Shown here one piece after another: positions 49,651 to 55,475 of a stretch of 60,741 nt of DNA; within the stretch, counting starts at the first letter, position 1, and every line of letters begins with the position of its first letter. The translations under genes were made by a program, and so were the position numbers. The notes below the pieces were generated by a model. It was not told the DNA's origin and ran no database searches. It worked only from the letters and a program-made list of their open reading frames with translations. The stretch is from NCBI GenBank assembly GCA_938010045.1, contig CALLFZ010000005.1, positions 1 through 60,741 on the forward strand. The letters are read 5' to 3'. Source of the stretch: an uncultured bacterium (GTDB lineage: Bacteria > Verrucomicrobiota > Kiritimatiellia > PWTM01).

Positions 49651-50136
49651 ATGAATTTGCGGCGGATTCTGCCGGAAGAAACGATCCGCGTTGGCCTGCG
49701 GGGGCAGACGAAGGCGGAGATCATCGAGGAGCTACTCGACATTTTGGCCTCCTCGGGGGTTGTGTTGGACCGGGCCGCCGCCCTCAAGGCGCTCCGCGAG
49801 CGGGAGGCGCGAATGCCGACCGCGCTCCAGAATGGCATTGCGCTGCCCCATGCGAAGACCGATGCGGTGGATCGCCTGATCGCGGCGCTGGCGACGAAGC
49901 CGGAGGGGGTTGAGTTCGGCTCGATTGACGGCAAACCCACGACGATTTTCGTCATGACGCTGTCGCCGCTCAACCGCGCTGGCCCTCACATTCAGTTTCT
50001 CGCCGAGATTGGCCGGTTGCTGGGCGACGAACAGATTCGCACTCAGGTGCTGAACGCGCGCACGCCGGACGAGGTGGCGCGGATTCTGTACCAGGCCGGC
50101 GGGACGTCGGCGGACGATCGGAATGGCACCCTATAG
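49651..50136 (+). CDS. PTS EIIA-like protein (fructose/nitrogen type)
   Basis: A 161-residue EIIA domain of the fructose/mannitol or PtsN type. The phosphorylated His67 is in NGIALPHAKTDAVDRLIAAL, preceded by GQTKAEIIEELLDILASSGV. The C-terminal FVMTLSPLNRAGPHIQFLAE and IGRLLGDEQIRTQVL complete the fold. Without EIIB/EIIC partners nearby it is more likely regulatory (PtsN-like) than a transport component. It starts 34 bases after the tRNA and may be co-transcribed with it. No obvious Shine-Dalgarno precedes ATG 49651. The EamA transporter follows after 45 bases. Confidence 0.88.
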   Translation: MNLRRILPEETIRVGLRGQTKAEIIEELLDILASSGVVLDRAAALKALREREARMPTALQNGIALPHAKTDAVDRLIAALATKPEGVEFGSIDGKPTTIFVMTLSPLNRAGPHIQFLAEIGRLLGDEQIRTQVLNARTPDEVARILYQAGGTSADDRNGTL

Positions 50137-50181: not shown

Positions 50182-51069
50182 GTGAGCCACGGGGGGGAGT
50201 GGGCTGCGCTGCTGACCGCGGTCTGCTGGACGGTCAGCGCCATGTCGTTTTCGCTGGCCGGCGAGCGCATCGGCTCGATTCCCGTCAATGTGCTCCGCTT
50301 TGCCTTCGCACTGCCGCTCGTTCTCGGGGTAGTGGCCTGGCAAACGGGGGCGCCGTTGCCGCTGGACGCGCCGTTGCGGAGTTGGGTTCTGCTGATCGCC
50401 TCCGGCGTTGTGGGCTACTTCTTCGGCGATCTGTGCTTGTTTCGGGCGCTGGTCGAAATTGGGCCGCGGCGAAGCCTGTTGGTCATGTCGTTGGCACCTC
50501 CGATGACGGCTCTCCTGGCGGCGGTGCGGCTGGGCGAGCGCTTGACGATGGGGCAGTACGGCGCGATGGCTGTGACGCTTGCCGGGGTGACGACGGTGGT
50601 GGCCGAGCGCGGCGCGGCGGGCGGCGGGGGCCGGGCGACGGTGCGCGGCGATCTGCTGGCGTTCGGTGGCAGCGTGGGGCAGGCCGTCGGCATGGTGCTC
50701 GCCAAGGAGGGGCTGCCGGGCTTCGGTTCGGTGTGGGGGGCATCGGCGCTGCGGATTCTGGCCGGGGCCGTGTGCTTTGCGGTGCTGGCGGTGGTCCGCC
50801 GCGAGGGCGTGCGGCTACGTCGCGCGCTGTGGGATCGACGGGCCCTCGGTTGGGTCGCGCTGGGCGCGGTCATGGGACCATGTCTCGGTGTGACGCTCAT
50901 GCTGTTTGCGCTTGGCCGCATACCGGCCGGATTAGCGCAGACATTTGCCGCCACCACACCCGTTCTGATTCTGCCGGTCAGCCACGCGCTTGGGCGCGAT
51001 CGGATGACTGCGCGTGCGGCACTCGGCGCCGGGCTGGCGGTGCTCGGCGTGGCGCTGCTCTTCCGCTGA
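50182..51069 (+). CDS. EamA/DMT-family transporter
   Basis: A 295-residue inner-membrane protein of the drug/metabolite transporter superfamily. Ten hydrophobic segments form two five-helix EamA repeats, for example LLIASGVVGYFFGDLCLFRA in the first half and WVALGAVMGPCLGVTLMLFA in the second. SLLVMSLAPPMTALLAAVRL and TFAATTPVLILPVSHALG are the typical ends of each repeat. GTG 50182 is the only reasonable start. Substrate unknown. A double palindrome lies 100 bases past its stop. Confidence 0.88.
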   Translation: MSHGGEWAALLTAVCWTVSAMSFSLAGERIGSIPVNVLRFAFALPLVLGVVAWQTGAPLPLDAPLRSWVLLIASGVVGYFFGDLCLFRALVEIGPRRSLLVMSLAPPMTALLAAVRLGERLTMGQYGAMAVTLAGVTTVVAERGAAGGGGRATVRGDLLAFGGSVGQAVGMVLAKEGLPGFGSVWGASALRILAGAVCFAVLAVVRREGVRLRRALWDRRALGWVALGAVMGPCLGVTLMLFALGRIPAGLAQTFAATTPVLILPVSHALGRDRMTARAALGAGLAVLGVALLFR

Positions 51070-51169
51070 ACGCATCGCTGGCCGCTCCAGGCCCCGTAGC
51101 GGCAGCAAGGTCCATCGATCCGTTTGAGCCCCCAGCGGCGGGACCGGCGGTGGCATGGCGTGCAGGGTC

Positions 51170-51214
51170 TCCAAGACTCGGACAGCCACGGGCGGGTTCC
51201 ATCCAACCGTTGGA
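51170..51214. repeat. Double palindrome TCCAA-N3-TTGGA, copy 3
   Basis: TCCAAGACTCGGA at 51170-51182 (one arm mismatch) and TCCAACCGTTGGA at 51202-51214, starts 32 bases apart with a 19-base spacer. It lies 100 bases after the EamA gene and about 270 before the dnaK start. Confidence 0.75.
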
Positions 51215-51349
51215 TCAGTGATTCCGCCTGGTACGGCCTGCCCGACCTCGCGGAACGAGTCGGAGATCAAACGCGGCATTGCGTCACGGTCAGATCGAAA
51301 CTGCGCCAGAATGGCACACCGCAATATCCGGAGGCTTATTGTGAGGGGC

Positions 51350-51378
51350 TTACGTATCATACAGATCATCAGTATATA
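51350..51378 (+). promoter_or_regulatory. Putative sigma-70-type dnaK promoter
   Basis: TTACGT at 51350-51355 and TATATA at 51373-51378 are 17 bases apart in an AT-rich patch. Matches to consensus are 3/6 and 4/6, so the case is modest. Confidence 0.3.
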
Positions 51379-51409
51379 ACGGTTATGTTCGAGATCATTC
51401 TAATCAGAT

Positions 51410-51425
51410 TGGCATGCGCATTGCT
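51410..51425 (+). promoter_or_regulatory. Sigma-54-type (-24/-12) promoter upstream of dnaK
   Basis: TGGCATG-CGCA-TTGCT runs from 51410 to 51425. GG at 51411-51412 and GC at 51423-51424 are ten bases apart, the invariant spacing of sigma-54 promoters. Against TGGCACG-N4-TTGCT only one base differs. The transcript would begin about 51436, some 50 bases before the dnaK ATG. No activator gene lies in the window. Confidence 0.5.
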
Positions 51426-51485
51426 AAACGGAGGGTGCCTGCGTTGGAGCGGAAAGCGCGGGATACGCGGGCGGGAGATTTTGTT

Positions 51486-53432
51486 ATGTCGAAGGTACTG
51501 GGGATTGATTTAGGTACGACGAACTCGTGCATGGCGGTGATGGAGGGTGGCCAGCCCGTGGTCATTCCGAACGCCGAGGGTGGGCGAACGACGCCGTCGG
51601 TGGTCGCGTTCACGAAGAGTGGCGAGCGGCTGGTGGGTCAGGCGGCGCGCCGGCAGGCGGTGACGAATCCGAAGAACACGATTTTCTCGATCAAGCGGTT
51701 CATGGGGCGCCGTTATGACGAGGTGCAGCAGGAGATCAAGCTGGTGCCCTACGAGGTGGTGCGCGCGCCGAATGGCGACGCGCACGTGCGCGTGGGGGAC
51801 CGGGTGTACTCGCCGCCCGAAATTTCGGCGATGATCCTTCAGAAGCTGAAGGCCGATGCGGAAGCGTTTTTGGGCGAGAAAATCACGCAGGCGGTCATCA
51901 CGGTGCCCGCGTACTTCAACGACAGCCAGCGCCAGGCGACGAAGGACGCCGGCCGGATCGCGGGGCTCGAGGTGCTGCGGATCATCAACGAGCCGACCGC
52001 CGCCTCGCTCGCGTATGGTCTCGACAAGAAGAAGGACGAGACCATCGCCGTCTACGACTTGGGCGGCGGCACATTCGACATCTCGATCCTCGAGATCGGC
52101 GAGGGCGTGTTTGAGGTCAAGGCGACGAACGGCGACACGCATCTGGGCGGCGACGACTTTGACCAGGTGATCATCCAGTGGATGCTCCAGGAGTTCCGGC
52201 GCGAGCACGGGATCGACCTCTCGAAGGATCCGATGGCGCTGCAGCGCCTGAAGGACGCTGCGGAGAAGGCGAAGTGCGAACTGTCGACCTCGCTGCAGAC
52301 GGAGATCAACCTGCCGTTCATCGCGGCGGGCAGCGACGGCGAACCGAAGCACCTCAACATGACGCTGTCTCGTGCGAAGCTCGAACAGTTGGTGGATCAC
52401 CTGATCGAGCGTAGCGTGGGCCCGGTGCAGAACTGCCTGAAGGACGCGGGGCTCTCGTTCTCGGACATCGACGAGGTCGTGCTCGTCGGCGGCATGACGC
52501 GTATGCCGAAGGTGCAGGAGCGCGTGAAGGCGCTGTTCGGGCGCGACCCGCACAAGGGCGTGAACCCGGACGAGGTCGTCGCGATCGGCGCGGCGATTCA
52601 AGGCGGCGTGCTGAAGGGCGAGGTGAAGGATGTGTTGCTGCTCGACGTCACGCCGCTGACGCTCGGCATCGAGACGCTCGGCGGCGTGTTCACGCCGCTG
52701 ATCGAGCGTAACACAACGATCCCGACGCGAAAGAGCCAGATCTTTAGCACCGCGGCCGACGGGCAGACGACCGTCGAGATCCACGTGCTGCAGGGCGAGC
52801 GCAAAATGGCGGCCGACAACAAGACGATCGGCCGGTTCCTGCTCGATGGCATCCCGCCGGCCCCGCGCGGCGTGCCGCAGATCGAGGTCACGTTCGACAT
52901 TGACGCGAACGGCATCCTGAATGTGTCGGCGAAGGACCTCGGCACCGGTAAGGAGCAGAAGATTACGATCACCGCCTCGAGCGGTCTCGACAAGGCGGAG
53001 ATCGAGCGGCTCATTCGTGAGGCTGAGGCGCACGCGGCCGAGGACCAGCGCCGACGCGAGGAGGTCGAAACGCGCAACCAGGCCGATTCGCTCGCGTACT
53101 CGACGGAGAAAGCGCTCAAGGACTACGGTGACAAGATTTCGGCCGACGCCAAGCGCCGCGTCGAGGACGCGGTGACGAAGCTCCGCGAGGCGCTCGACCG
53201 TAAGGACGGCACCGACGGGCTGCGCCGCGCAATGGAGGAGGTGAACCGCGCGATGCAGGCGGCTTCGACCGAGCTCTACGCCCAGGCGCGCAAAAGCGGG
53301 GCGGGAGCGGCGGGCGGTGGGGGCGCGGGACCCGGCCCCGGAGCTGCCGGCAGCGGGAATGGCGGAGGCCGCCCGCGGGACGACGGCGTGATCGACGCGG
53401 ACTACACGATGGTGGACGACCAGAAGCGGTAG
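51486..53432 (+). CDS. dnaK: Chaperone DnaK (Hsp70)
   Basis: A 648-residue Hsp70 with a complete ATPase domain: [79 protein letters not shown] and [20 protein letters not shown]. The linker and substrate domain follow ([40 protein letters not shown]). The tail is Gly/Ala-rich and ends [19 protein letters not shown] 51486 follows GGGAG by eight bases. grpE and dnaJ are absent. groES lies 90 bases downstream, so this is a joint Hsp70/Hsp60 block. A sigma-54-type element lies upstream. Confidence 0.98.
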
Positions 53433-53522
53433 GACCGATTTCAGTAGGCGACGGGTCGGAATGGGGTCCGGGCCCGTTCGCCGCCGTGTAGGTGAGACCC
53501 CGAACGAGGAGAGTGAGAGCGC

Positions 53523-53813
53523 ATGAAGATCCAACCGCTGGCGGATCGAGTTCTGGTGGAACCGATCGAGGAGGCGGAACAGAAGAAGGGCGGGATCATC
53601 ATCCCGGACACCGCGAAGGAAAAGCCGACCACGGGCAAGGTCATTGCAATCGGAACCGGTAAGCTCGACGAGAAGGGCAACAAAATCCCCTTCAACGTCA
53701 AGGTCGGCGACAAGGTGCTCATGCCGAAGTACGGAGGCACCGAAGTGAAGTTGGACGACAAGGAGTACCAGATCATCCGCGAGGAGGATATCCTCGGGAT
53801 CGTGAAGGACTGA
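53523..53813 (+). CDS. groS: Co-chaperonin GroES
   Basis: A 96-residue Hsp10. [20 protein letters not shown] begins the barrel, [20 protein letters not shown] the mobile loop region, and [20 protein letters not shown] then [14 protein letters not shown] the end. GGAG lies about 14 bases before ATG 53523, within a purine-rich leader. No CIRCE element (HrcA operator) is visible before it. It is followed by groEL after 45 bases. Confidence 0.98.
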
Positions 53814-53858
53814 GGCTCCAACGGCGTCCACAAGTCCAACCCAGAAGGAGAGTTCAAC

Positions 53859-55475
53859 ATGGCAGCGAAGCAACTGAAGTATGATGCCGAAGCGCGTCAA
53901 GCGATTCTCAACGGCGTGCAGCAGCTCGCGCGCGCGGTCGCGGTGACGCTGGGGCCAAAGGGCCGGAACGTCATCCTCGACAAAAAGTTCGGTTCGCCGA
54001 CGGTCACGAAGGACGGCGTGACGGTCGCGAAGGAGATCGAGCTGAAGGATCCCTTCGAGAACATGGGCGCGCAGATGGTGCGCGAGGTCGCCAGTAAGAC
54101 CAGCGACGTGGCCGGCGACGGCACGACGACCGCCACCGTGCTGGCCGAGGCGATCTACCGCGAGGGTCTGAAGAACGTGACGGCCGGCGCGAACCCGATG
54201 TCGCTGAAGCGCGGCATCGATAAGGCGGTCGAGACGGTCGTGGCCGAGCTCAACAAGATGAGCAAGAAGGTCAAGGATCGTTCGGAGATCTGCCAGGTCG
54301 CGACAATTTCGGCCAACGGCGACACGACAATTGGCGAAATCATCGCCGACGCCATGGAGAAGGTCGGCAAGGACGGCACGATCACGGTCGAAGAGGCGAA
54401 GAGCATTGAGACCACGCTCGAGGTCGTCGAGGGCATGCAGTTCGACAAGGGCTATCAGTCGCCCTACTTCGTCACGAACAGCGACACAATGGAGTGCGTG
54501 CTCGAAGACGCCTACGTGCTCGTGTACGAGAAGAAGATCTCGAGCCTCAACGATTTCCTGCCGCTGCTGCAAAACGTGGCGAAGAGCGGCAAGCCACTGC
54601 TGGTGATCGCGGAGGAGGTCGAGGGTGAGGCGCTCGCGACGCTCGTCGTGAACCGGATTCGGGGCACGCTGCAGTGCTGCGCGGTGAAGGCGCCGGGCTT
54701 CGGCGACCGTCGCAAGGCGATGTGCGAGGACATTGCGATCCTGACCGGCGGCCGGTTCATCAGCGAGGACCTCGGTATCAAACTCGAGAACGTGCAGCTG
54801 TCGGACCTCGGCCGCGCGAAGCGGATCGTCGTGGACAAGGACACGACGACGATCGTCGAGGGCGCGGGCAAAACTTCGGAGATCAAGGCCCGCATCGAGC
54901 AGATCCGCAAGCAGATCGAGGAGACCACCTCGGACTATGACCGCGAGAAGCTGCAGGAACGGCTCGCGAAGCTGGCCGGCGGTGTTGCGGTGATCAGCGT
55001 GGGTGCGGCGACCGAGACCGAGATGAAGGAGAAGAAGGCGCGTGTCGAAGATGCGTTGCACGCGACCCGCGCCGCGGTCGAGGAAGGCATCGTGCCGGGC
55101 GGTGGCGTCGCGATGGTGCGCGCGGCGGCCGCGCTGGAGTCCCTGAAGGTCACGGGCGACGAAGCGGTCGGCGTCGAAATCGTCCGCAAGGCCTGCGATG
55201 CGCCGCTGCGGCAGCTCGTCGCGAATGCGGGCATCGAGGGCGCGGTGGTGCTCGAGGAAGTCCGCAAGGGCAAGGGCGCCTATGGCTACGACGTCGCGAA
55301 AGGCGAGTACGTGGACATGGTGAAGGCGGGCATCATCGACCCGACGAAAGTCGCGCGGACCGCGCTGCAAAACGCGTCGTCGATCGCGGGTCTGCTGCTC
55401 ACGACGGAGTGCATGGTGACCGAGATTCCGGAGAAGAAAGAGGCTCCGGCTTCCTCGGGCAGCATGGACTACTGA
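53859..55475 (+). CDS. groL: Chaperonin GroEL
   Basis: A 538-residue Hsp60. The ATP site is [20 protein letters not shown] and [20 protein letters not shown]. The apical domain includes [20 protein letters not shown] and [20 protein letters not shown]. The equatorial return is [20 protein letters not shown], then [20 protein letters not shown] with [18 protein letters not shown]. The tail ends SSGSMDY and lacks the usual GGM repeats, so the cavity tail differs from the E. coli type. AGAAGGAG lies about eight bases before ATG 53859. A strong terminator follows. Confidence 0.98.

Follow-up and report, generated by a model that had tools for sequence, protein, structure and literature searches.

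The dnaK, groES and groEL genes of this bacterium are preceded by a -24/-12 element that is conserved in position among its relatives, and we put at about 0.8 the probability that it belongs to a chaperone regulon transcribed by sigma-54 RNA polymerase with the help of an enhancer and a NifA-like activator of the GAF type. The predicted promoter, TGGCATG-CGCA-TTGCT (TGGCATGCGCATTGCT), starts 76 nt upstream of the dnaK ATG at 51486, has exact GG-N10-GC spacing and differs at one position from TGGCACGN4TTGCW; the spacing and the single mismatch to the consensus had been stated in an earlier sequence-only reading of this DNA. The features within the window, which is the whole 60,741-nt stretch of DNA analysed here, are as follows.

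51302-51318, no strand: predicted enhancer (UAS), TGCGCCA-GAA-TGGCACA (TGCGCCAGAATGGCACA), an exact match to TGYGMCANNNTGKCRCA and a predicted binding site for a sigma-54 activator (bEBP)
51319-51409, no strand: spacer from enhancer to promoter, the second half of which is AT-rich; predicted DNA-bending or looping region
51410-51425, plus strand: sigma-54 -24/-12 promoter, assigned from the sequence pattern and from conservation upstream of dnaK in 48/48 genomes
51436, plus strand: predicted transcription start, placed by sigma-54 promoter geometry, in which the transcript starts ~12 nt past the -12 GC
51486-53432, plus strand: dnaK, 648 aa (NCBIfam DnaK, 1047.2 bits)
53523-53813, plus strand: groES (NCBIfam GroES)
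53859-55475, plus strand: groEL (NCBIfam GroEL)

Judging from their spacing, groES and groEL probably share the dnaK transcript, and 27 of 29 loci have a groES-like motif after dnaK, as detected with a crude regular expression. A longer reading frame beginning at the ATG at 51414 was rejected as the dnaK start, as it would overlap the -12 element of the promoter, and the DnaK matches in most relatives begin at the equivalent of the ATG at 51486. The dnaK leader contains no known RNA thermosensor or riboswitch according to Rfam at gathering thresholds, the sole match in the window being a tRNA.

Scoring the promoter by counts inside the window was uninformative and was abandoned. TGGCATGCGCATTGCT is the only perfect match to TGGCAYRN4TTGCW within the window, and at ≤2 mismatches 18 matches were found versus 16.4 expected, which is the chance level. 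In the host genome (3.2 Mb, 98% complete), three perfect matches were identified and the reversed-pattern control also returned three, and such a number is no evidence by itself. What decides is where the site lies and how well it is conserved, and on these grounds the promoter was accepted as real. dnaK was sought in 58 genomes of the same class, the host among them; 50 were matched and eight gave no match at E ≤ 1e-150. One match that began only at residue 168 (G004) was left out, which gave 49 upstream regions, and one region of only 13 nt (L032) was dropped, leaving 48 for the counts. A GG-N10-GC site with ≤3 mismatches to TGGCACGN4TTGCW and ≤200 nt from dnaK was present in all 48 genomes, host included (0 mismatches in 10, 1 in 15, 2 in 20 and 3 in 3), compared with 2/48 reversed regions, 46/960 shuffles and 0/210 windows of 200 nt taken from inside dnaK. 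By the DnaK tree, which places two genomes with the label Kiritimatiellae within the set of relatives and leaves Lentisphaeria and Verrucomicrobiae outside it, the class of the 58 genomes is probably Kiritimatiellia, the support for the whole group being modest (86/79). Taxon labels are uneven, the DnaK of G006 being identical to that of L051, which is labelled 'Lentisphaerae bacterium'.

Among genomes with names, 79 of 80 loci were scanned, one with 2 nt of upstream sequence (L121) being left out, and 53 of the 80 were used in the enhancer comparison described below. Sigma-54 sites with ≤3 mismatches and ≤160 nt from dnaK were found in 31 of 34 named Verrucomicrobiota-type loci (36 rows minus two duplicates, G006 and G021; L056 carries no phylum label) versus 1 of 17 other loci (L074, L082 and L103 without a phylum label). 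The sigma factor itself is encoded in the host genome, where rpoN scored 198.6 bits with PF04552 and 436.4 bits with TIGR02395 (cut-off 277.35), the whole model being covered. Two of the checks proposed in the sequence-only reading, for rpoN in the genome and for the element ahead of dnaK in relatives, came out in its favour.

HrcA/CIRCE and RpoH heat-shock control act on the same target genes, and HrcA, CIRCE and promoters of the sigma-70 and sigma-32 types were sought as well. HrcA was found in none of the 58 genomes, some of which are incomplete, and the same search was positive in 7 of 14 control genomes. The CIRCE element TTAGCACTC-N9-GAGTGCTAA had no match at ≤3 mismatches within the window. 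With scans confined to non-divergent promoter types, no sigma-70-type promoter was detected in 51000-54000, and 51151-51490 offered no sigma-32-like match with fewer than 4 mismatches. The locus differs from HrcA/CIRCE-controlled ones in that the repressor gene was found in none of the 58 genomes and the operator nowhere in the window. Together, the conservation of the site, the host rpoN and the HrcA and CIRCE results strongly support the predicted sigma-54 promoter before dnaK, and the earlier reading is supported in this part.

An inverted-repeat search upstream of the promoter revealed a palindrome, TGYGMCA-N3-TGKCRCA, that recurs in different families. The host copy starts at 51302, 108 nt upstream of the -24 element, and this predicted enhancer thus lies within the ~80-200 nt at which a UAS is looked for upstream of a sigma-54 promoter. 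The 3.2 Mb host genome has no other exact match (reversed pattern, 0), and among the 48 dnaK regions the palindrome occurs with 0 mismatches in 9, ≤1 in 18 and ≤2 in 35, versus ≤2 in 2/48 when reversed; these counts and the genome-wide scan are not independent of the consensus, which was first spotted by eye in the dnaK regions. In the 35 genomes UAS and promoter are 93-159 nt apart, and the distances show a periodicity near 10.5 bp (Rayleigh p ~0.0007; p 0.0034 under a jittered-position null), p-values that kinship among the genomes makes guides only. Such a periodicity is expected if DNA looping requires enhancer and promoter to be turned towards each other. The sequence-only reading had instead pointed to the direct repeats AGATCATC and AGATCATT as possible activator sites. 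AGATCAT is indeed present at 51363 and 51392, but in only 1 of 49 regions, that of the host, and these unconserved repeats were discarded in favour of the conserved palindrome further upstream.

Because the pattern was first seen in the same data, the enhancer was tested further on held-out material, namely the named loci, the clpB regions of other genomes and, less strictly, a split by family. A UAS with ≤2 mismatches was found in 25 of the 34 named Verrucomicrobiota-type loci versus 2/34 reversed, and in 1 of the 17 other named loci. In the family split, which is less strict in that the training sites were chosen with the consensus, a weight matrix from odd-numbered families reached p ≤ 0.01 in 21 of 22 even-family regions, and in the reverse direction in 20 of 26. 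UAS sites are weaker in loci with Verrucomicrobiae-type labels than in Kiritimatiellia, and one locus of the Lentisphaeraceae (L094) has the enhancer but lacks a sigma-54 site in the 160 nt before dnaK. In one genus (G016, G031, G042 and G053), the sigma-54 promoter is found without a canonical UAS (3-5 mismatches). Inspection by eye of its loci (L046-L049) showed, ahead of the dnaK promoter, TGTGCCA, TGGCAC and GTGCCA half-sites that are differently ordered and spaced, which hints at a possible re-arrangement of the enhancer. The single positive among the 17 other loci, L074, is placed with the outgroups by the DnaK tree; it carries a UAS-like palindrome (1 mismatch) ~140 nt upstream of dnaK and no sigma-54 site at the tested level.

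Across the host genome, the UAS at ≤1 mismatch occurs at nine places, and the reversed control also gave nine, so this list is mostly chance. Sigma-54 sites (≤2 mismatches) in the 3-kb surroundings were found at two of the eight places other than dnaK, L164, where the site is ~1 kb from the palindrome, and L168, where the UAS sits between clpB and a three-gene hsp20 operon that are read in opposite directions. Towards hsp20 lies the sigma-54 site TGGCATGCGTGATGCT (2 mismatches) and towards clpB the site TGGCATTTAAGATGCT (3 mismatches). The better palindrome of L168 is 131 nt from the hsp20 promoter and 58 nt from the clpB promoter, and a second one (3 mismatches, our own reading) is 109 nt from the clpB promoter, compared with 108 nt at dnaK. 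This near-copy of the UAS with sigma-54 sites on both sides suggests that a predicted sigma-54 regulon extends to further chaperone genes.

The clpB genes of the relatives were then compared. clpB was matched in 54 of the 58 genomes, and 50 upstream regions (≤400 nt) were tested, including that of the host, from which the lead had come, and excluding those of G011, G050, G055 and G057. The UAS was present at ≤1 mismatch in 12/50 regions versus 0 reversed and at ≤2 mismatches in 18/50 versus 1 reversed, and the dnaK-derived UAS weight matrix reached p ≤ 0.01 in 22/50. Sigma-54 sites were found in 23/50 regions at ≤2 mismatches versus 0 reversed and in 31/50 at ≤3 mismatches versus 3 reversed, at least one of these matches overlapping the palindrome itself (L172). 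At these thresholds, 19 of the 50 clpB regions have no sigma-54 site (≤3 mismatches) and 32 no UAS (≤2 mismatches); some clpB genes may lie inside operons.

Three strong bEBP matches were obtained in the host genome, two of which begin, by eye, with a response-regulator-like domain and one of which carries a GAF domain. The last is the candidate activator.

Contig C34:47403-48968 (L134:901-2466): candidate activator, 522 aa (Pfam GAF, Sigma54_activat and HTH_8)

The protein combines a GAF domain, a sigma-54 AAA+ domain and a Fis-type HTH, and its GAFTGA motif is invariant in 16 aligned orthologs, which were chosen, not sampled, and from which L158 was left out. A GAF-type match starting within the first 20 residues was found in 51 of the 58 genomes, and 46 of the 51 matches reach at least residue 506; of the other five, two are cut short (G014 and G035) and three (G009, G028 and G050) end at residue 444-446. 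The remaining seven genomes comprise four without a match at E ≤ 1e-100, two with a match from ~residue 170 and one with a match from residue 62. The three matches that stop at 444-446 belong to family f2 and lie in ORFs of 774-790 aa, in which the DNA-binding end of the activator seems to have been replaced or extended. With the NifA equivalog TIGR01817 (cut-off 528.85 bits), the host protein scored 526.6 bits and the ortholog L142 511.5 bits, both under the cut-off, and nifH exceeded its cut-off in one of the 58 genomes (G037), which is not the host. NifA proper was therefore rejected as the identity of the activator, which we call NifA-like. The NifA site is TGT-N10-ACA; the enhancer, TGY-N11-RCA at its ends, resembles it and so fits a NifA-like activator. 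The gene of the GAF-type protein is the divergent neighbour of dnaK in G021 and G034, the dnaK enhancers of which are weak (3 mismatches) despite the adjoining activator. Overall, the GAF-type protein is the likely activator at the predicted dnaK enhancer. In the host, its gene follows, by eye, a frame resembling NAD synthetase (nadE; L134:2-900), and out-of-frame upstream residues that are alike in several relatives suggest that the nadE-activator pair may be conserved.

In the proposed mechanism, sigma-54 RNA polymerase would transcribe dnaK-groES-groEL from the -24/-12 element at 51410-51425, and a bEBP, most likely the NifA-like GAF-AAA+-HTH protein on contig C34, would bind the palindromic enhancer at 51302-51318, loop over the spacer and open the promoter using ATP. 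The same activator would also drive clpB and the three-gene hsp20 operon, and the whole would make up the chaperone regulon of the class, probably a heat-shock one, standing in for HrcA/CIRCE. The signal would be heat or unfolded protein, as the identities of the genes suggest. A wider version, to which we give somewhat less than even odds, is that Kiritimatiellia, Lentisphaeria and parts of Verrucomicrobiae run a heat-shock response without HrcA from sigma-54 promoters alone, with dnaK-groESL, clpB and hsp20 sharing a conserved and helically phased enhancer on which a dedicated activator of the NifA branch acts, the GAF domain of this activator being the stress sensor; for this version, the HrcA and activator searches covered the host's class and the dnaK upstream regions provide the data outside it.

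Three other explanations were weighed against this mechanism. That an AT-rich patch happens to resemble a -24/-12 element by accident would agree with the equal numbers of perfect genomic matches and reversed controls and with the chance-level relaxed matches in the window, yet the site is in place in all 48 genomes at a rate far from its three controls, and the phased enhancer and the copies at clpB and hsp20 would be left unaccounted for; owing to the conservation above all, we regard chance as vanishingly improbable. It is also unlikely, if far less remote, that promoter and enhancer are real and are served by a bEBP of the response-regulator type, with a signal other than heat (e.g. nitrogen or envelope stress). 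The other two host bEBPs have the response-regulator-like start, NifA-type proteins classically respond to nitrogen or redox status, and the genus of G016, G031, G042 and G053 keeps a GAF-type bEBP despite lacking the canonical enhancer. Against this, of the bEBPs in G018, G030 and G052 (two each at E ≤ 1e-40), the GAF type alone occurs in all three genomes, neither response-regulator type being shared by the three, a comparison made by eye in genomes that are 94, 91 and 89% complete, where the absence of a gene may be incompleteness. Moreover, nifH exceeds its cut-off in a single one of the 58 genomes, the GAF-type gene adjoins dnaK in two genomes, and both places in the host where a UAS has well-placed sigma-54 sites are at chaperone genes.

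The third explanation is that tandem promoters are present and that basal or heat expression of dnaK comes mainly from a promoter of the sigma-70 or sigma-32 type. Cells need basal DnaK, the AT-rich patch could hide a weak promoter, and the hrcA-grpE-dnaK operon of Chlamydia offers a precedent (PMC8762339). However, the sigma-70 and sigma-32 scans of non-divergent promoter types gave, as described above, no match and a match with 4 mismatches, and neither HrcA in the 58 genomes nor CIRCE in the window was found. We consider such an arrangement improbable here, and sigma-54 transcription driven from the palindromic enhancer is retained as the preferred reading.

DnaK, GroEL and ClpB are core chaperones, whose genes are usually under either a heat-shock sigma factor or a repressor that comes off the DNA while chaperones are occupied. 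A sigma-54 promoter gives no transcription unless an ATP-using activator is at work, so main chaperones placed on such promoters would follow a different logic, with little leak and obligatory sensing. If the wider version is true, bacteria would have, beside sigma-32, HrcA/CIRCE and HspR, another basic way of controlling the heat-shock response, one that is positive and driven by ATP. If such control held across a phylum that is mostly uncultured, a concrete promoter, enhancer and activator would be available to test, and what the GAF-type bEBP senses in protein-folding stress would become a defined experiment.

Sigma-54 control of chaperone genes is itself already predicted elsewhere. Bradyrhizobium japonicum groESL3 is under NifA/sigma-54 control with the enhancer TGT-N10-ACA. 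It resembles the present locus in that a NifA-type bEBP and sigma-54, here predicted, act at a chaperonin operon, and its TGT/ACA ends resemble TGY/RCA, although the palindrome here is 17 bp and the NifA enhancer 16 bp. Unlike the dnaK-groESL, clpB and hsp20 genes considered here, in a class where nifH passes its cut-off in one of 58 genomes, groESL3 is one accessory chaperonin copy tied to symbiosis. Chlamydia belongs to the same PVC superphylum as the host. The groESL3 genes are described as co-regulated with nitrogen-fixation genes (PMC6604987).

Carrera-Reyna et al. (2025) predicted a sigma-54 chaperone cluster (GroEL, GroES, GrpE, DnaJ, DnaK and IbpA) in Bacteroidota and Planctomycetota, and cite sigma-54 dependence of grpE in both Bacteroides and Flavobacterium and of groES in Bacteroides (PMC12316311). 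That cluster is like the present one in having -24/-12 promoters before core chaperone genes, predicted outside Proteobacteria; it differs in that the study states the chaperone enrichment for Bacteroidota and Planctomycetota, and the passages considered name no activator for the chaperone genes. In its main text, the strings Kiritimatiell-, Lentisphaer-, HrcA and 'upstream activat-' are absent, and 'verrucomicrobi' occurs three times, on motility, transport and rpoN autoregulation. The sequence-only reading had called sigma-54 control of the block unusual; the control stands as predicted, and its rarity has to be tempered, since it had already been predicted for genes of the dnaK, groEL and hsp20 type in these two phyla (PMC12316311).

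In Chlamydia, hrcA-grpE-dnaK has tandem sigma-66/sigma-54 promoters, and sigma-54 is lowered by heat (PMC8762339); the available text of a later study points to dnaK having no promoter of its own (PMC12282069). The dnaK operon there shares a sigma-54 promoter with the present one, but contains hrcA, CIRCE and a primary-sigma promoter, whereas here HrcA is found in none of the 58 genomes and groESL comes after dnaK. The clpB, groEL, dnaK and hsp20 genes of the planctomycete Rhodopirellula respond to heat by induction, and regulation of rpoH, rpoE and rpoN was not seen according to the available text of that study (PMC2754498). The main text of an older sigma-54 survey mentions no dnaK, groE or Verrucomicrobia (PMC3162934). 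Among the matches listed in open-licence PubMed Central, no report of such a regulon in Kiritimatiellia, Lentisphaeria or Verrucomicrobiae was found, which is a weak negative.

Some further observations concern sigma-54 in the host more generally. One of the perfect TGGCAYRN4TTGCW sites, at C17:6129 (L132:1501-1516, plus strand), has, by eye, no clear ORF of ≥90 aa downstream on the same strand and could drive a small RNA or a small protein. Two genes upstream of dnaK, at 49651-50136, a PTS EIIA protein of the FruA/PtsN kind is encoded; in Proteobacteria, genes of the PtsN type are often tied to rpoN. Another perfect site, at C20:15242 (L133:1501-1516, minus strand), lies beside two ORFs that appear by eye to be type IV pilin-like, and type IV pilin genes are a classic sigma-54 target.
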